Part shown: positions 3,012-10,020 of the stretch, one piece after another
Layout: each line of letters starts with the position of its first letter
Position numbering within the stretch: the first letter of the stretch is position 1
NCBI GenBank assembly: GCA_020052235.1
Contig: JAGVPM010000110.1
Coordinates: forward strand, 1-37,627
Source: Candidatus Goldiibacteriota bacterium
Lineage (GTDB): Bacteria > Oederibacteriota > JAAXVQ01
Length of the DNA: 37,627 bases
Reading direction: 5' to 3'
Program-made: the position numbers and the translations under genes
Notes under the pieces: model-generated
Databases searched by the model: none
What the model was told of the DNA's origin: nothing
The model's input: only the letters and a program-made list of their open reading frames with translations

Positions 3012-3635
3012 TTAGGATTCCAATGAAAATACATATGGCACTAAAATTTTAACCGGCACCGGTTTTCCGTTTACACGGGCGGGCATGAATGTCGAATGCT
3101 TCAAGGCCATCAGCGCCGCTTGATCAAACAGCTCGCCGCCGCTTTTTACAATGCGCGCCATGCGGACCAATCCGTCAATGCCAATGTAAGCTTCAAGTAT
3201 CACTTTGCTGGTGCGGCCTAATTTTTGGGCACTTTCTGGGTAGGAAGGCGTGATTTTACTTTGGAAGACCGGCACCTGTTCCACGGCGTAAAAAGGCATG
3301 AAAAGTTTGCCGTCAACATTGGGGTTAAAGGGCGCGCCATTGGCATTGTCTTGATTTTGCGCTTCTTCGGGTTCGTTTTCCGGCTGAACCGGTGCGGAGG
3401 CCGTGGACGGTTTGTCGTCGACAATTTCTTTGGGTTTGGGTTGCGGCACTTTGTGCACCACGGACCCGGAAGAGGGCGGTGCATAATCTTGAATATATTC
3501 CACATCCGTCAAGACCATATTTTTATTTGAATGCGCAGCGTTCCGGAAACCCACTTGGCTGATGAGCATCAAATGTAAAAGTATGGAAATGGCCACGGTG
3601 GCTTGCAGACGGGTGTCCGGACGGTCGAGCCACAT
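3012..3635 (-). CDS. tonB: TonB family energy transducer
   Basis: 207-residue TonB-like protein linking the inner-membrane ExbB/ExbD proton motor to outer-membrane receptors. One transmembrane helix lies near the N-terminus (about residues 12-30, ATVAISILLHLMLISQVGF). A proline/charged spacer follows (PQPKPKE, EPEEAQNQ), then a C-terminal TonB domain starting at PSYPESAQKLG and ending in a VKILVPYVFSLES strand. The ATG at 3635 is preferred over an in-frame upstream start inside exbD because it follows a GAGGG ribosome site and lies one base after the exbD stop. No TonB-dependent receptor is in the window, so the cargo is unknown. Confidence 0.9.
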   Translation of the reverse strand: MWLDRPDTRLQATVAISILLHLMLISQVGFRNAAHSNKNMVLTDVEYIQDYAPPSSGSVVHKVPQPKPKEIVDDKPSTASAPVQPENEPEEAQNQDNANGAPFNPNVDGKLFMPFYAVEQVPVFQSKITPSYPESAQKLGRTSKVILEAYIGIDGLVRMARIVKSGGELFDQAALMALKHSTFMPARVNGKPVPVKILVPYVFSLES

Positions 3636-3636
3636 G

Positions 3637-4056
3637 TTAATCCCTCTTTTCTTCGGTGCCAAAACTAATATGCTGGGCTCCGGCTTGCTTGATGGTATCC
3701 AAGGCTTGAAGTACGGTTTGGCTTAAAACCCGGGCGTCTGCCCGGATAATCACGCGTTTGGTTTGACTCTGCAAAAGCCGGGTGGCGATGATTTCGGGGA
3801 AATCACGGGAGGTAACCTTGGCTTCATTGATGGCCAAGTTGCCGTCTGAAGCAATGGCCACAAATAGATTTCCCTCGCGTCCCTGGTCCGTAGCCATGGT
3901 TTTCGGCACCCATACTTCAAAGGGCGGTTGCAGGAACATGGCGGTGGTAACCATAAAGATAATGACCAAGACCAGGCAGATGTCCACCAGCGGCGTCACG
4001 TTGATTTCCGCCATGATGGTATTGGGCGAGTTTTTTTTCTTAAATAAATTGCGCAT
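3637..4056 (-). CDS. exbD: ExbD/TolR family biopolymer transport protein
   Basis: 139 residues, full family length. After a short basic cytoplasmic N-terminus comes INVTPLVDICLVLVIIFMV, the single transmembrane helix with the proton-relay aspartate (Asp25). The periplasmic domain follows, with the RVIIRADARVLSQTV segment typical of ExbD/TolR. A GAGGTG ribosome site precedes the ATG. It is the second of two exbD copies in the operon; the upstream copy is frameshifted, so this one may be the only full-length ExbD made from this operon. Two different ExbD subunits per motor are common in such systems. Confidence 0.92.
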   Translation of the reverse strand: MRNLFKKKNSPNTIMAEINVTPLVDICLVLVIIFMVTTAMFLQPPFEVWVPKTMATDQGREGNLFVAIASDGNLAINEAKVTSRDFPEIIATRLLQSQTKRVIIRADARVLSQTVLQALDTIKQAGAQHISFGTEEKRD

Positions 4057-4095
4057 GATCTAACACCTCGGAAAAATGCCGCAGGCCGGTCCGAT

Positions 4096-4502
4096 TTACG
4101 GATTGGCTCCCCAAATAACCAGCTTTTTTGCCCCGCATTGCTTAGCGGTATCCATAACCCGCACCACATCCCCATGCACCACACCCTGGCCGGGCCGCAC
4201 CACCACGCGTTTTTTCACTGAGTGCTGCAGGGAAACGGAAAGCACTTGCGCCAGATTGGGCCAGGGAATGGATTGCCGGTTGATGATTATCTGATTGGCT
4301 TCCAATTTTACGAGTACATCGTCCGCAGCCGAATTGGAAGCGGCATCGGCTTCGTTTTTTTTTCACCGGGAAACACGGTAATGCCTTTTTGCATCAGCAT
4401 GGGCGCCGTGGCCATGAAAATAACCACCAACACCAAGCTGACGTCCACCAGAGGAGTCAGGTTAATTGAAACAATGGGTTTTTGCTGTGCTCCAAGATTC
4501 AT
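4096..4502 (-). pseudogene. exbD: ExbD/TolR family protein, frameshifted at an A9 run
   Basis: The start (AGGAGG site, ATG at 4502) gives an ExbD N-terminus with the signature INLTPLVDVSLVLVVIFMA and the conserved Asp. The frame then meets nine A residues (4363-4355, minus strand) and stops 17 codons later. The other frame continues with EADAASNSAADDVLVK and an ExbD periplasmic domain (RVVVRPGQGVVHGDVVRVMD) to the stop at 4096. A tenth A, or a -1 slip on the run, would give a normal protein of 135 residues. This may be a real mutation, a sequencing or assembly error, or a gene expressed by transcriptional or ribosomal slippage. Confidence 0.8.
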
Positions 4503-4670: not shown

Positions 4671-4746
4671 CTGCCTCTACGGCAGGGAAAAATAGAGGCG
4701 CTCGGGGCATGATATCCGATGCCCCTTGGCAAGCCTCGGGGGGCTT
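4671..4746 (-). other. Three consecutive stem-loops between exbB and exbD
   Basis: Just after the exbB stop lie three inverted repeats in a row: AAGCC/GGCTT (4731-4735/4742-4746), GGGGCAT/ATGCCCC (4704-4710/4719-4725) and CCCTGCC/GGCAGGG (about 4671-4689). None has a proper U-tract on the minus strand, so they are not classic terminators. They may protect the exbB 3' end or set the exbB:exbD ratio by mRNA processing. Confidence 0.45.
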
Positions 4747-5357
4747 CACTTTTTGACCATGAACAACACTTGTTCGACCGAAGCTTCAATATCCGTAATG
4801 GTTTGGCGCACGCGGGAAACGTAAAAGTTGTAAAAAATAACCGCCGGAATGGCCACGGTCAAACCGGCGGCGGTCGCGATCAGCGCCTCGGCAATACCTG
4901 CCGCGACCACATTGGGGCCGCCTGACCCGGCCGTGGACAGGGATTGGAAGGCTTTAATGATGCCGATGACTGTGCCCAAAAGACCTATAAAGGGCGCCGT
5001 ATTGCCGAGCGTGCCCAGTATCCCTAAGAACCGTTCCAAAAGCACTTCTTCTTTTTTAATCAAGCTCGACAACAGATTGGTCAGGCTTTCCAGGGATTCT
5101 TTGGAGTGTTCCAAGGTTGCATGGATAACACGAGGCAAAGGGCCTTGAAAATTTTGGCAGTAGGCCAAGGCATGATTGATTTCCTTTTTTTGAATCAAGG
5201 GCTTCAAGCCTTGAAAAAAATGATCGTGGTTGATCAAATTGCGCCAGTAATAAAGGCCGCGCTCTAAAATAAACACCAGCGAAATTATGGAGCAGGCAAT
5301 CAACACCACCAGCGTCGGGCTTGACAACAACATAGAAATCCAATTGATATCCATCAT
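4746..5357 (-). CDS. exbB: MotA/TolQ/ExbB proton channel family protein
   Basis: 203 residues. ExbB forms the pentameric inner-membrane channel that converts proton-motive force into motion of ExbD/TonB. A first transmembrane helix lies at about residues 12-30 (SPTLVVLIACSIISLVFIL). After a cytoplasmic loop come the two conserved helices, including GNTAPFIGLLGTVIGIIKAF and GLTVAIPAVIFYNFY, with the family GLLGTV and AIPA motifs. An AAGGAG site lies 8 bp before the ATG pair. It heads the exbB-exbD-exbD-tonB operon. The caspase gene ends 150 bp upstream on the same strand, so read-through from the sigma-factor operon is possible. Confidence 0.92.
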   Translation of the reverse strand: MMDINWISMLLSSPTLVVLIACSIISLVFILERGLYYWRNLINHDHFFQGLKPLIQKKEINHALAYCQNFQGPLPRVIHATLEHSKESLESLTNLLSSLIKKEEVLLERFLGILGTLGNTAPFIGLLGTVIGIIKAFQSLSTAGSGGPNVVAAGIAEALIATAAGLTVAIPAVIFYNFYVSRVRQTITDIEASVEQVLFMVKK

Positions 5358-5507: not shown

Positions 5508-7610
5508 TTAAAAGTTGAACTGCACTCCGCCGAAGATTAAAGGCAGGACGTTGAAATGCCAGAGTCTGGGCTCGTCATTTTCTTCGGAAATGTTAAACGC
5601 CAAATTTACACCGTGACCCACGAAAATCGAAAAAAACGATGCAAGGCGCAAACCGGCAAGGGCGCGCCACTGGGTAAAGGTTTCATCGCCCACGCCGGAA
5701 TGCGTGAAGGGGGAATGAATCAGGGCGCCGATACCCAAATCGGATTCGAAGTAAAATGAATGCACTGGCACATGCGCGCCAAAACGGACGGACCACGCTA
5801 GGGCATTGTCGGTGCCTGAGGACAAGGACTCGCTGCTTACGGCCAGGAGGGAATAAAGATGATTTACCCGGAAGCGCACGCCGGTGTTGTACAGAAGGTA
5901 GTTGTCGGACCAGGTGGTCCAGTCGATGGAACCATTTTTGGCCAAGTTGATCAAACCAATGGATTCGCCTTTTTGTTCTCCAGTTAGATTAACCAACCCA
6001 AATTGAAATCCGTTGCAATTCCGGGATATGTTCACCGGGCCAAGTTGAGTGCCCAAAACATCGCCACCTGCGTAATTTCCGGCATAGCTAAGTTGCACTC
6101 CGGTAACATTGTGGCTGGTAAAGTTGAAACCTCCCAATTGCACTCCAACGGCATCCTCGAAAACTTGGTTGATGCCCGTGGTTAACTGGATGCCGTCAAA
6201 TCGCTGATCCACTTGGTTGAAAAAATTGGAAATCTGGATTCCCTCCATCGGACCGTAGACATGATTGCCTACGAACGAAACCTGCATGCCGCGGGCGTTT
6301 TCTCCGACAATACCCGGCCCTGTTCCCACACTGAAACCGTCCAATTTGGCGCTGTAACTTCCCAAAGCATTGAATACGTAATAATGGATGGTGCGCATAT
6401 TTTCCGCGCGCCGGATGAGGGGAGAAAAATGCCAGGGGATTACGGTATACCCGCTGCCGCTGAATTTGGCATTGACATCTTCGGCGAAAGCCTCATGCTC
6501 CGCATCCGGTTCCGGCGCCCGACCGCGTGTTACGGTCGGTTCGCGATGAATGATTTTAAATTGCTCAGGCGCCAGTACCAGTTGTTGCCCAAAATCAAGT
6601 TGGATTTGTGCTGCGTAGGTACGGCTGCCGGTTTCATTGGTGATTGAAAAATCACCGTTTTCCAAGCCGATGCGCAGCTCGCGCCCGGGGAGTTTGCGCA
6701 GTTCCGCCATGAGTTGGCCGGTGCGGTCACGCACCGAGATCCGGCCTTGAATGGTTTTGTCCAGCACCAGCACGGCCGAGGAATTATGAATATCGGTCAT
6801 AATCACATCGCCGGTGCCGGTCATTTGGATATCGTAGTTGGGATGCTGGGGGCCGCTTAAGGTGCGTTCGGTTTTGGCCAGGGTTTCGGTATAAGCGTAT
6901 TGATAGGCTTCACTCAGCGTAATGCGCCCGTCCTGTGTCAGGTCCGCCGCACCCCGCAAGCCGGTCACCAGGTAATGGGTAAAAAACGAACTTTTTAACC
7001 GGTCTGATTCCTGCGAAGCCTCATCCACGGAACTGGAGGTCATAATCGCGAAACCGCGCATATTGTACGCCGAATCTTCCAGAAACGGCGGCCGGGAGGT
7101 TCCGCCCTTTAATCGGGTAAAGGCGCCCGAGGAACATGAATCCAGAATGGTGATGCGCACGTCCGCCGGCAATTGGGCAAGCAGGGCGCGGATTTCCTTA
7201 TAATAAATTTTTTCCCCGCGCAGCAGGAGCGCTTCTTCATCCGAGTGCCCGGAGTAATAGAAAATAAGTTCCAGCTTTTTATAGCGATTTTTTAGGATTT
7301 TGAGTTTGGGTTGCAGCCGGGCAAAACCGTTTAAAAAAGAACGGCGTGTAGGTTCGATCATCAATACACTGTCGGCCGGAAGCACGCCCCCGATTTTTTG
7401 TAAAAGATCCATGACTTTTTGCGCGTCGGAAACCGCATAGCGCAGCTCAGCCCGTTCTTTGCCGCCATTGTTGGCGCCAATGACTACCGCAAACCGGCAG
7501 CCTATCTCAGCGGAAGCGGGCGCATCGCCGGGTTGGGCCTGGACGGACGAAACAGCGGTAAGCAGGGCAAAAAGGATCAACCACCAACGTGCCGACTTGG
7601 TGTTTTTCAT
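5508..7610 (-). CDS. Secreted caspase-family peptidase with EF-hand and beta-barrel-like repeat region
   Basis: 700 residues. A signal peptide (about 1-25, ending VQAQ) is followed by a caspase/C14 fold at about 38-275: FAVVIGANN, the catalytic histidine in YYSGHSDEE (His122), and the catalytic cysteine in DSCSSGAF (Cys159). Within it, Asp223-Glu234 (DLTQDGRITLSE) fits an EF-hand/dockerin calcium loop. From about residue 425 the protein carries G-hydrophobic-Q repeats (GMQVSF, GIQISN, GVQLGG, GTQLGP, GFQFGL) like LA_2272-type surface proteins. It ends in alternating aromatic strands with a terminal phenylalanine, as in outer-membrane barrels. The start overlaps the anti-sigma stop by 4 bp. 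Likely role: an envelope protease linked to ECF signalling; its substrate is unknown. Confidence 0.85.
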   Translation of the reverse strand: MKNTKSARWWLILFALLTAVSSVQAQPGDAPASAEIGCRFAVVIGANNGGKERAELRYAVSDAQKVMDLLQKIGGVLPADSVLMIEPTRRSFLNGFARLQPKLKILKNRYKKLELIFYYSGHSDEEALLLRGEKIYYKEIRALLAQLPADVRITILDSCSSGAFTRLKGGTSRPPFLEDSAYNMRGFAIMTSSSVDEASQESDRLKSSFFTHYLVTGLRGAADLTQDGRITLSEAYQYAYTETLAKTERTLSGPQHPNYDIQMTGTGDVIMTDIHNSSAVLVLDKTIQGRISVRDRTGQLMAELRKLPGRELRIGLENGDFSITNETGSRTYAAQIQLDFGQQLVLAPEQFKIIHREPTVTRGRAPEPDAEHEAFAEDVNAKFSGSGYTVIPWHFSPLIRRAENMRTIHYYVFNALGSYSAKLDGFSVGTGPGIVGENARGMQVSFVGNHVYGPMEGIQISNFFNQVDQRFDGIQLTTGINQVFEDAVGVQLGGFNFTSHNVTGVQLSYAGNYAGGDVLGTQLGPVNISRNCNGFQFGLVNLTGEQKGESIGLINLAKNGSIDWTTWSDNYLLYNTGVRFRVNHLYSLLAVSSESLSSGTDNALAWSVRFGAHVPVHSFYFESDLGIGALIHSPFTHSGVGDETFTQWRALAGLRLASFFSIFVGHGVNLAFNISEENDEPRLWHFNVLPLIFGGVQFNF

Positions 7611-8419
7611 TGCCGCTCGCTTTTTTGGATGACAACCGAGTATTGGTGCAAGTTGCGGTTGAGCGGCAGGGATTCGGTTTTGGCCAGATGCGGGGTTTGC
7701 GCCAAGGTCCGCGCGGCGCGGAGGATGTCAAGGGGAGAGATCGGAGTAACGGATGTGATCAAGAAAAAACGTTCGAAGCCCGGGGCGTTGTCGAGTTCGT
7801 AAGCTTTGGGCAAAAGGGTTTTGTGCTTGATTTGCAATTTGGATGCTGTTTGGTTGTTTTCGGGGAAATGCAGGGTCGCGGTTCCGCGTCCATCAATGGA
7901 AATAATCACGCCATAAGGTTCGGTTAAGGAAACATAGGCAATTTGCAGCAGGTCGCCGTGCCTGGCAAAGGCGAAAGGTTTGAGCAGCTCGGCGTTGCCT
8001 TGGTGTTGGCGGTAAATAGTCAAACCGGATTCCATGCCTTTTAAGCGGGTGATTTCCAATCCCGCCCCGGGATGCAATTGGGGTAAAAGCCACGCGGGCA
8101 TAATCCAAAGTGCCAGGGCTGCGGCCACGGCCACGGTTCCGGCCGGAAACATCCAGCCGGGACGGGCCCAAGTGACGTGGGTATTTGGAACGGTCCGGTC
8201 CGCGGTGGTTCCGCCCAATTGCCGCTCACGGATACGGTCTGCCATGGCGGTTGCCGGGTAATGCCGCAAGATGGCGTCGTTGGATTGAGTGAGTTCACGC
8301 AATCGTTGCTGTAAACCGGGGTCGGCTTGAAGCAATATTCGAATTTCCTCCCGTTTAGCCTGGGGAAGTTCGTCCAAGGCGTAACGTTCCAGCCAGTAAT
8401 CTGAAAGAGGGTTAGACAT
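7607..8419 (-). CDS. Membrane-bound anti-sigma factor (zinc-less), DUF4384-like periplasmic part
   Basis: 270 residues. The N-terminal 50 residues (WLERYALDELPQAKREEIR, then QADPGLQQRLREL) match the anti-sigma helical fold, but there is no Cys, so the HxxxCxxC zinc site is absent. One transmembrane helix lies at about 89-112. The periplasmic half (about 120-235) contains an SGLTIYRQ segment, then GDLLQIAYVSLTEPYGVIISIDGRG, a beta-rich region reminiscent of DUF4384/ActD-like proteins that often accompany bacterial caspases. It overlaps the sigma gene by 8 bp and the caspase gene by 4 bp. Inferred role: it holds the ECF sigma at the membrane until an envelope signal arrives. Confidence 0.75.
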   Translation of the reverse strand: MSNPLSDYWLERYALDELPQAKREEIRILLQADPGLQQRLRELTQSNDAILRHYPATAMADRIRERQLGGTTADRTVPNTHVTWARPGWMFPAGTVAVAAALALWIMPAWLLPQLHPGAGLEITRLKGMESGLTIYRQHQGNAELLKPFAFARHGDLLQIAYVSLTEPYGVIISIDGRGTATLHFPENNQTASKLQIKHKTLLPKAYELDNAPGFERFFLITSVTPISPLDILRAARTLAQTPHLAKTESLPLNRNLHQYSVVIQKSERQ

Positions 8420-8900
8420 GTTCGTACTCCTTTAATGCTTGGACCCGGGTTTTAAATTCGCGGACACGCTTGCGCACGCCCGACACGGACATTCCAAAAG
8501 CCTCGGCCACCTCTTCCAGGGTCATGCCATCCACGTAGAGCATGACCATCATTTCTTTGGTGGTCGGTTTTTCCTGGCGGAAAAGGTGGTCAAGCCAAGC
8601 ATTTAAAAAAATGGGTTTATCATGTTCGGCAGCCGAGGCAATGGAAGCAATGATTTCCTCGGAATCGTTTACAGCCGTATGTTTGGATGAACGGATAAGG
8701 TTTAAACACACATTGGTGGCCATGCGGTAGAGCAGGCTGGAAGGGTAGTCGCCCCTGAGGCGGTTTTGATAAGTTAAAAGCCGCACAAACACCTCTTGCA
8801 TGGCATCCAGCGCCCTTTCTTCCTGTTTGAGAAGAAACCGGCAGCGCCGCAAGACCATCGGTCCGTATGTTTGATAATGGGCGGCAACATCGATAGCCAT
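8412..8900 (-). CDS. ECF-type RNA polymerase sigma factor
   Basis: 162 residues, the usual size for a group 4 sigma factor. Region 2 is visible at about 16-70 (EERALDAMQEVFVRLL, then LLYRMATNVCLNLIR) and region 4 at about 108-150 (MTLEEVAEAFGMSVSGVRKR, a helix-turn-helix). There is no region 1 or 3. It is the first gene of a tightly overlapping sigma - anti-sigma - caspase operon. The housekeeping-like promoter upstream (8991-9020) suggests basal expression; no ECF-type autoregulatory promoter could be recognised. Confidence 0.9.
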   Translation of the reverse strand: MAIDVAAHYQTYGPMVLRRCRFLLKQEERALDAMQEVFVRLLTYQNRLRGDYPSSLLYRMATNVCLNLIRSSKHTAVNDSEEIIASIASAAEHDKPIFLNAWLDHLFRQEKPTTKEMMVMLYVDGMTLEEVAEAFGMSVSGVRKRVREFKTRVQALKEYEHV

Positions 8901-8990
8901 GGCGTAATCTCCCGATCGCTTCTATACCCTCTAACACCCTGGGGAATAAAAAGTGTCACTTCCCTTGGTTGAGAAGAGGCAACGGCATCC

Positions 8991-9048: not shown

Positions 9049-9120
9049 GCGGGGAATAGCGTGCTAGATTGAAGACCAACTTGGAAAATGAAAACTCAAT
9101 AAGTTGCGGGAGTGGTTGGC

Positions 9121-10020
9121 ATGCATGCTTTTTGGGATCATACTATGGTTTTTTTGACGTCGCTGTCCATGAAGTCAAAAAAGTTTTTTTCGCGCACCAT
9201 TTCGGGGCCTTCGTGGTCGCGGCACTTGGAGGGCGTCCGTTTATCCCAACCCCGGCAGGAAGCACCGGACCAATTTTTACTTCCCATGCAAACTTTGGCA
9301 GGTCCCGTGGACCCGGCGTATAAGATCATACAATGGAAGGGCGCGGTTTTTCCAACTTTGATTTTTCATCATGGGCACAGTGAAGCGGCCTTTGATTTTT
9401 CCGCGCAAGCCAACAATACGTTTAAAAATATGTTTTTGTGGAAGCAAGCGCCGGTGGAAGCCAATTGGATTGTTATTCGCGCACCCTATCATAATGACTC
9501 CCTGCTGCATTATTTGGAGCATATGGTGGAGTTGTCCCACTACATGGCCATGCTGGTCGGATCGGTTTGGACCATGGAGCATGTGGTACAGGAGTGCCGG
9601 CAGAAGAAAAATGAAAAAATTTATCTGGCGGGCGTGGGAATGGGCGGTTCGGCTGTGAATCTGCACCGGACGCTGTACAACAGCGCCACGGCGTATATAC
9701 CGCTGTTGGCCGGTGCAGCTTTGGCGGAAGTTTTTGTCACGGGTGCGTACCGGCGTTTGACCGGTTCGCTGGCTTTGGAATATCCGGATTCTGTGCGCCA
9801 GCTTTTGAATTTTGAAGAAGCTTTTCAAGGTGTTAAAGGAACGCCGGTGTTTCCGCTCTTGGCGCGCTTTGACCGGGTGATAAACTGGGAACGTCAAAAG
9901 CAGGGGTACATGCCGGAGTCGCTGCAGAGCATCCGCAAAGGGCATATGACGGCGCTTATGGCGCCGGACTTGTTGCGGCAACATGTTCTGCGTGCCATGC
10001 AAATTACCGCGGCTGCTTAA
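9121..10020 (+). CDS. Alpha/beta-hydrolase-like protein lacking the nucleophile serine
   Basis: 299 residues from the ATG at 9121, chosen because GGGAG lies 8 bp before it; a GTG at 9112 is in frame but overlaps that site. The protein shows an alpha/beta-hydrolase layout: an oxyanion-region HHGHSE motif (about 83-88), the RAPYHND strand, a nucleophile elbow KIYLAGVGMGG at about 167-176, and a late His (KGHMT). The elbow reads G-V-G-M-G instead of G-x-S-x-G, so the catalytic serine appears replaced by glycine. It is followed 31 bp later by a methyltransferase gene. The function is unknown and possibly non-enzymatic. Confidence 0.65.
   Translation: MHAFWDHTMVFLTSLSMKSKKFFSRTISGPSWSRHLEGVRLSQPRQEAPDQFLLPMQTLAGPVDPAYKIIQWKGAVFPTLIFHHGHSEAAFDFSAQANNTFKNMFLWKQAPVEANWIVIRAPYHNDSLLHYLEHMVELSHYMAMLVGSVWTMEHVVQECRQKKNEKIYLAGVGMGGSAVNLHRTLYNSATAYIPLLAGAALAEVFVTGAYRRLTGSLALEYPDSVRQLLNFEEAFQGVKGTPVFPLLARFDRVINWERQKQGYMPESLQSIRKGHMTALMAPDLLRQHVLRAMQITAAA

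Follow-up and report, generated by a model that had tools for sequence, protein, structure and literature searches.

A conserved sigma/anti-sigma/caspase-barrel operon in a Candidatus Goldiibacteriota genome as a candidate cell-surface signalling switch

The DNA analysed here, referred to as the window, comprises 37,627 nucleotides of a Candidatus Goldiibacteriota bacterium (contig JAGVPM010000110.1 of assembly GCA_020052235.1, positions 1 to 37,627 of the forward strand). Three overlapping genes on its minus strand encode an extracytoplasmic function (ECF) sigma factor, a membrane anti-sigma factor, and an exported caspase fused to an outer-membrane beta-barrel, and this trio is real and widespread. 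Conservation and a common promoter argue strongly for a regulatory link between the sigma factor, the anti-sigma factor, and the caspase. It is reasonably probable that the caspase, tethered to the outer membrane, serves as site-1 protease for the anti-sigma factor and cuts it within an R-x-K-G motif, between Lys and Gly, a cleavage that we infer from the presence of the same motif in both proteins. The features of the operon are listed below by window position.

8412..8900, minus strand: ECF sigma gene, 162 aa (Pfam and TIGR02937 matches, orthologs in the same order)
7607..8419, minus strand: anti-sigma gene, 270 aa (AlphaFold model, weak match to the NF052375 antisigma family, DUF4384-like domain)
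8036..8047, minus strand: anti-sigma R125-L-K127-G128, proposed cleavage site (conservation in 55 homologs)
5508..7610, minus strand: gene for caspase, LA_2272 repeats, and outer-membrane barrel, 700 aa (PF00656, model, Foldseek)
7536..7610, minus strand: signal peptide of the caspase protein, residues 1-25, MKNTKSARWWLILFALLTAVSSVQA (visible in the sequence)
7245..7247, minus strand: codon of catalytic His122, invariant in 88/88 homologs
7134..7136, minus strand: codon of catalytic Cys159, invariant in 88/88 homologs
7104..7115, minus strand: caspase R166-L-K168-G169 after the catalytic Cys, proposed autoprocessing site (conservation in 88 homologs)
6909..6944, minus strand: EF-hand-type loop D223-x-T-x-D227-G-x-I-x-x-x-E234 (sequence and model)
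5511..6446, minus strand: repeat and barrel region, residues 389-700, with C-terminal Phe (NCBIfam, model, Foldseek)

An earlier note, made from the sequence alone, had described three overlapping genes for an ECF sigma factor, a zinc-less anti-sigma factor, and a caspase. The coordinates, the Pfam domains, and the cysteine-free anti-sigma factor bear this out, the overlaps being 8 bases between the sigma and anti-sigma genes and 4 bases between the anti-sigma and caspase genes. The sigma factor matched Sigma70_r2 (1.8e-10) and Sigma70_r4_2 (2e-7) in Pfam as well as TIGR02937, and it has regions 2 and 4 only, as is typical of the ECF type. The trio occurs in the same order in two genomes of the same taxonomic order (G004 and G007), with identities of 54-63% for the sigma factor, 41-42% for the anti-sigma factor, and 47% for the caspase; one of these two genomes is recorded as candidate division FCPU426.

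The middle protein is, on sequence and model, a membrane anti-sigma factor of the general type with predicted sigma binding. It has a helical N-terminal domain, one transmembrane (TM) segment, and an ECF sigma gene as its neighbour. Since it contains no Cys, the zinc motif HxxxCxxC is absent and the protein does not belong to the zinc-associated anti-sigma (ZAS) group; the motif is also missing from nearly all of its homologs. In the AlphaFold model (predicted local distance difference test, pLDDT, 85), the helical N-terminal domain, predicted to bind sigma (residues 1-69), is confident, the linkers on either side of the TM segment (about 96-111) are disordered, and the second of these, at 112-126, leads to a confident periplasmic beta domain at 130-266. 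This domain resembles DUF4384 (PF14326) weakly and below threshold in the window protein (18.7 against a cut-off of 27 bits, E 0.0019), and 24 of 55 anti-sigma homologs matched DUF4384 independently (E < 0.01). DUF4384 is tied to caspases by independent evidence, because it is an accessory domain in 23 cyanobacterial orthocaspases (PMC8283722). A fold search with the anti-sigma factor returned weak Ig-like matches only, one of them a proteinase inhibitor and none with E < 0.001, and these were not used as evidence.

The third protein carries a caspase domain (PF00656, residues 39-225, 2.4e-9, above the cut-off), and its dyad His122/Cys159, which the earlier note had called intact, is present in every homolog. 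The C14 (orthocaspase) fold was also recovered with Foldseek, which aligned the model to legumain, caspases, and metacaspases at E about 1e-5; a sequence search of the PDB with the caspase matched nothing. An N-terminal hydrophobic export signal was found in nearly all caspase homologs. Metacaspases cleave on the C-terminal side of Arg or Lys, and in TbMCA2 the residues Asp95 and Asp211 have been assigned to the S1 pocket (PMC4357240, PMC9622860). Asp62 and Asp157, the latter two residues before Cys159, are conserved in 88/88 homologs and are candidate S1-pocket positions that would suit a basic P1 residue; their equivalence to the TbMCA2 aspartates is our reading of helix 1 and the D-x-C motif. 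The caspase scored 58 against a cut-off of 140 for the EACC1 type in NCBIfam and was not assigned to it, and an anti-phage defence system was likewise rejected, as PADLOC yielded just a weak generic caspase match.

The EF-hand-like loop reported earlier inside the caspase protein also held up. Its 12 residues have ligands at positions 1, 3, 5, and 12 (D223 in 88/88, E234 in 88/88, and D227 in 85/88 homologs) and lie in a modelled helix-loop-helix at residues 209-247 (helix 209-221, strand 229-231, helix 232-247), which makes calcium gating of the caspase plausible. The AlphaFold model of all 700 residues (pLDDT 88) comprises a signal helix, the caspase domain to about residue 265, a small beta domain, a disordered segment at 359-377, and a long antiparallel beta region that ends at Phe700. 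Using Foldseek, the C-terminal region was matched to solved 8-stranded outer-membrane barrels, namely OprF (TM-score 0.76 at 3.4 A), OmpA, NspA, and OmpX. With the export signal, and with barrel closure judged from these structural matches, the region is modelled as an outer-membrane beta-barrel, in agreement with the suggestion that an exported caspase is fused to a surface barrel. The absence of a barrel or of an export signal, which the earlier note had named as grounds for refuting its proposal, was therefore not what the sequence and model showed. The LA_2272 repeat (NF047436) passed its NCBIfam cut-off narrowly (25.5 against 25 bits), and the number of G-x-Q repeats differs among orthologs.

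A scan of 85,000 species genomes gave 80 loci, and profile searches of the neighbouring genes were then performed. Genes for the sigma and anti-sigma factors lie directly upstream of the caspase nearly everywhere that the contig extends far enough, in lineages that include FCPU426, Spirochaetota, Myxococcota, Fibrobacterota, and Aminicenantes metagenome-assembled genomes. The arrangement is far beyond chance, because it recurs in dozens of genomes from several phyla. To escape the bias of caspase queries, 20 whole genomes were searched with the anti-sigma factor only. Among the 48 matches spanning the periplasmic part, 39 have a same-strand Pfam caspase directly downstream and five more have one that is detected with a profile built for this analysis, giving at least 44 of 48. 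At Pfam sensitivity the trio caspase is the sole caspase-domain gene of the 3.17 Mb window genome. Elsewhere, a single Pfam caspase is mostly that of the trio; the exception is G077, in which the trio caspase is seen only with the profile built here and the Pfam caspase is another gene.

Some loci call for separate mention. Such operons also occur in four records (L020, L072, L086, and L091) whose titles name Comamonas, Borreliella garinii, or Klebsiella pneumoniae; these titles are probably wrong, as L020 closely resembles Myxococcus. A genome of the same phylum (G034, contig C266) has three consecutive caspase genes (L005, L013, and L015), one of which adjoins a DUF4384-like lipoprotein. In Archangium (L126, G061:C1:5720241), a sigma/anti-sigma pair with R-T-K-G and the sigma promoter of the trio (11/12) is followed by a tetratricopeptide repeat (TPR)-like protein in place of the caspase.

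Within the juxtamembrane linker of the anti-sigma factor, conservation is confined to the R-x-K-G motif. The motif ends a linker that is otherwise variable in sequence (about 29% conserved) and in length (5-44 residues), and in 55 divergent homologs the Lys was found in 54, the Gly in 52, and the Arg in 50. KG follows the TM segment in 69/74 caspase-linked anti-sigma factors and in 0/18 other anti-sigma factors from the same genomes. A corresponding R-x-K-G-G forms the caspase loop seven to ten residues past the catalytic Cys (Arg in 82/88, Lys in 85/88, first Gly in 88/88), where the model is disordered at 168-179. In the window the pentapeptide TRLKG is identical in the two proteins. The simplest reading of these sequences is that the caspase would recognise R-x-K-G both in itself and in the anti-sigma factor. 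The earlier suggestion that the caspase might cleave the periplasmic part, for which basic sites were to be sought, gains a conserved candidate site in the linker and its repeat in the caspase. In divergent lipoprotein caspases of Myxococcota, K-G lies a short way past the Cys of the lipid anchor, and the anti-sigma factors encoded upstream of them have K-G or K-S directly past the TM segment. Eight loci represent this second, lipoprotein class of exported caspase in Myxococcota, each with its own upstream anti-sigma factor. An orphan anti-sigma paralog (L128, G059:C8) has R-L-K-S and no related sigma or caspase gene adjacent to it.

Identity of the motif implies recognition by the active site whether or not the anti-sigma factor is cut. 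The periplasmic domain could thus regulate the caspase or inhibit it as a pseudosubstrate, with an uncut R-x-K-G docked in the active site and the state of binding relayed to the sigma factor, and the persistence of an anti-sigma/caspase pair without a sigma gene in Myxococcus is compatible with this. It is nevertheless improbable: Gly after Lys and a disordered setting are to be expected of a cut site more than of a tight inhibitor, and the Arg has been lost from some sigma-less anti-sigma factors (L024, L041, L071, and L075), even though the caspase would have to be kept inhibited there as well.

The operon is preceded by a promoter that would tie it to its own sigma factor, and a similar site precedes a set of Ton genes.

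8933..8959, minus strand: sigma promoter GTGACA-N15-GGTGTT, perfect, with no second perfect match in the 3.17 Mb genome
5433..5459, minus strand: second promoter-like site GTAACA-N15-CGTGTT, 10/12, preceding ExbB
4746..5357, minus strand: ExbB/TolQ proton channel (PF01618, 2.6e-34)
3637..4056, minus strand: ExbD/TolR (PF02472)
3012..3662, minus strand: TonB (PF03544)

Upstream of the sigma gene the promoter was perfect at 21 of 59 loci and matched at 11/12 or better at 27 (spacing of 14-16 allowed), for which shuffled sequences lead one to expect 0 and about 0.1, respectively. Across 24 genomes the promoter was matched perfectly 100 times and the reversed pattern 3 times, and the promoter is conserved across phyla. 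The standard ECF consensus (GAAC...CGT) was looked for upstream of the sigma genes and nothing conserved was found. The window genome has exactly two GTRACA-N15-SGTGTT sites, before the sigma gene and before ExbB, and no such site was found in five relatives of the same genus or order that lack a detected caspase. A large regulon in the window genome was rejected, as one-mismatch matches numbered 5 in all against 9 in the reversed-pattern control.

In other genomes the promoter precedes ExbB in M. xanthus (L234), Citreicoccus (L257), and the FCPU426 genome G007 (ExbB-ExbD-ExbD-TonB-receptor), secreted LA_2272-repeat proteins at three loci, DUF2807 lipoproteins at four, TonB-dependent receptors at two, and other envelope proteins. 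In Fibrobacter (L236, G070:C17:40201), the sigma promoter also precedes a DUF3450 gene that lies some 8 kb from the trio. In the window, a first ExbD-like gene (4095-4502, minus strand), located between the genes for ExbB and the second ExbD, seems to be frameshifted at an A run near 4360; its frame ends early and the ExbD-like C-terminus goes on in another frame, which may be a true lesion or an assembly error. The divergent gene beside the sigma gene (9112-10020, plus strand) has a borderline match to the ABHD18 alpha/beta hydrolase.

In Myxococcus and Pyxidicoccus the operon is split into two modules, the first with the sigma factor, the anti-sigma factor, and a 200-residue secreted barrel that lacks the caspase, and the second with an anti-sigma factor and the caspase-barrel protein and no sigma gene. 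The caspase was probably lost from the first module, because its anti-sigma factors fall into one group, at 100/99 support, with those from the complete trios found in Corallococcus and Citreicoccus. All 12 sigma-less modules (12/12) retain a perfect promoter. As both halves keep the same promoter, the regulatory link between caspase and sigma factor appears to persist in trans. Linkage of the caspase to the sigma pair, which the earlier note had made a check on its proposal, therefore fails in gene order in these two genera, where the second module has lost the sigma gene, and survives in the shared promoter. Nine loci were recorded in which the third gene of a sigma/anti-sigma operon encodes a caspase-free secreted barrel of about 200 residues.

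These data bear on whether the caspase is an output only. Another signal and another site-1 protease, for instance of the DegS or Prc type, could act on the sigma/anti-sigma pair, and the induced barrel-caspase could degrade envelope or foreign proteins or trigger lysis. ECF sigma factors often drive effectors, the promoter in the window genome drives the operon itself and almost nothing else, and regulon members elsewhere are envelope proteins, all of which would fit. This explanation is unlikely all the same, for it does not account for the near-invariance of R-x-K-G in the anti-sigma linker and in the caspase loop alike, for the anti-sigma factor staying with the caspase once the sigma gene is lost, or for the link between DUF4384 and caspases (PMC8283722).

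From the gene order, export signal, catalytic dyad, barrel match, shared motif, and promoter, all computed here, we infer that the trio would act as a cell-surface signalling switch. The anti-sigma factor would span the inner membrane, with its DUF4384-like domain in the periplasm and the sigma factor bound on the cytoplasmic side, and the C-terminal barrel would anchor the third protein in the outer membrane, so that its N-terminal caspase domain would face the periplasm. On receipt of a surface or envelope signal, possibly involving calcium at the EF-hand loop, the caspase would become active and cut itself at R-x-K-G, between Lys and Gly, in the loop past the catalytic Cys, and would cut the anti-sigma factor at the identical motif in the periplasmic juxtamembrane linker. 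Upon loss of the periplasmic domain, a general site-2 protease of the RseP type would complete the breakdown of the anti-sigma factor and free the sigma factor; an M50 site-2 protease is encoded in the window genome. The freed sigma factor would drive its own operon from GTGACA-N15-GGTGTT together with a small envelope regulon that includes the neighbouring ExbB-ExbD-TonB genes.

Several points weigh against this mechanism. The homologs were gathered largely via the caspase, and the sample is thus biased towards a caspase-linked family. M50 proteases are nearly universal, so the presence of one says little, and the window promoter before ExbB is imperfect (10/12). Lys and Arg do not co-vary strictly between the partners: strict co-variation had been suggested by three loci with R-G in both (L130, L132, and L134) and was dropped because of L166, where the caspase has Arg and its partner anti-sigma factor Lys. 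The motif is also kept in anti-sigma factors of caspase-less operons (L116 and L126), though those genomes have a caspase elsewhere. The main reservation is that the motif stands at a near-fixed 3-7 residues from the first beta strand and a variable 5-44 residues from the membrane. Such retention and spacing would be expected if R-x-K-G capped the periplasmic domain structurally and resembled the caspase loop by coincidence. That explanation is very improbable, given that Arg125 lies within a stretch of pLDDT < 50, that K-[G/S] is retained in divergent anti-sigma factors of other caspase operons, and that K-G also occurs in caspase lipid-anchor linkers, which no such domain follows.

The FecI-FecR-FecA system combines a sigma factor and an anti-sigma factor with an outer-membrane barrel whose N-terminal signalling domain lies in the periplasm, and it involves the Ton system. 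The trio is like it in topology only, a periplasmic domain followed by a barrel; the barrel of the trio is small, of OmpA size, with surface repeats, and its periplasmic domain is a protease. Pfam found neither an STN signalling domain nor a TonB-dependent plug in the 700-aa protein, which thus does not belong to the FecIRA type. DegS-RseA-RpoE and RsiW (cited in PMC10028731) likewise have an ECF sigma factor and a one-pass anti-sigma factor cut in its extracytoplasmic juxtamembrane part, and differ in their site-1 protease, which belongs to another class and has its gene at a separate place, whereas the one proposed here is an outer-membrane-tethered caspase from the same operon. Among systems in which a caspase-like protease targets the inhibitor of an ECF sigma factor, the closest one studied in detail is Csx29-Csx30-CASP-sigma of type III-E CRISPR, where a protease of caspase type (CHAT) has been proposed to relieve sigma inhibition by cleaving the inhibitor (PMC10028731). 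Unlike the trio, that system is cytosolic, target-RNA-activated, and barrel-less, its inhibitor is not a membrane anti-sigma factor, and its protease belongs to another subfamily.

EACC2-caspase systems (PMC8195603) also place a caspase gene beside an ECF sigma gene; they differ in having EACC2 or TRADD-N domains and a DUF1822 TPR partner, and are viewed as conflict systems. None of these domain types was matched in the window proteins using Pfam. In a survey published in 2012 (PMC3501461), sigma-70 genes were reported from four metacaspase operons of M. xanthus, and the same was noted for Anaeromyxobacter, Haliangium, Sorangium, Ralstonia, and Fibrobacter; these operons very probably include the present gene cluster, and the survey gave no anti-sigma factor, export, barrel, motif, promoter, or mechanism. 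A description of the trio as a signalling system was not found in the open-licence papers searched.

Few roles of secreted bacterial caspases are known, and the 2012 survey suggested only programmed cell death (PMC3501461). One large group of them now has a candidate substrate, cut site, promoter, and regulon that can be tested in genetically tractable myxobacteria. With moderate confidence, the trio may represent a widespread class of surface signalling in which an outer-membrane sensor carries its own periplasmic caspase, cuts itself and the anti-sigma factor between Lys and Gly of R-x-K-G, and commands an ECF regulon with a dedicated Ton system and surface-repeat proteins. If this is true, an outer-membrane-tethered cysteine protease would join the short list of site-1 proteases, and a caspase would be a direct trigger of envelope signalling, beyond cell death or phage defence.

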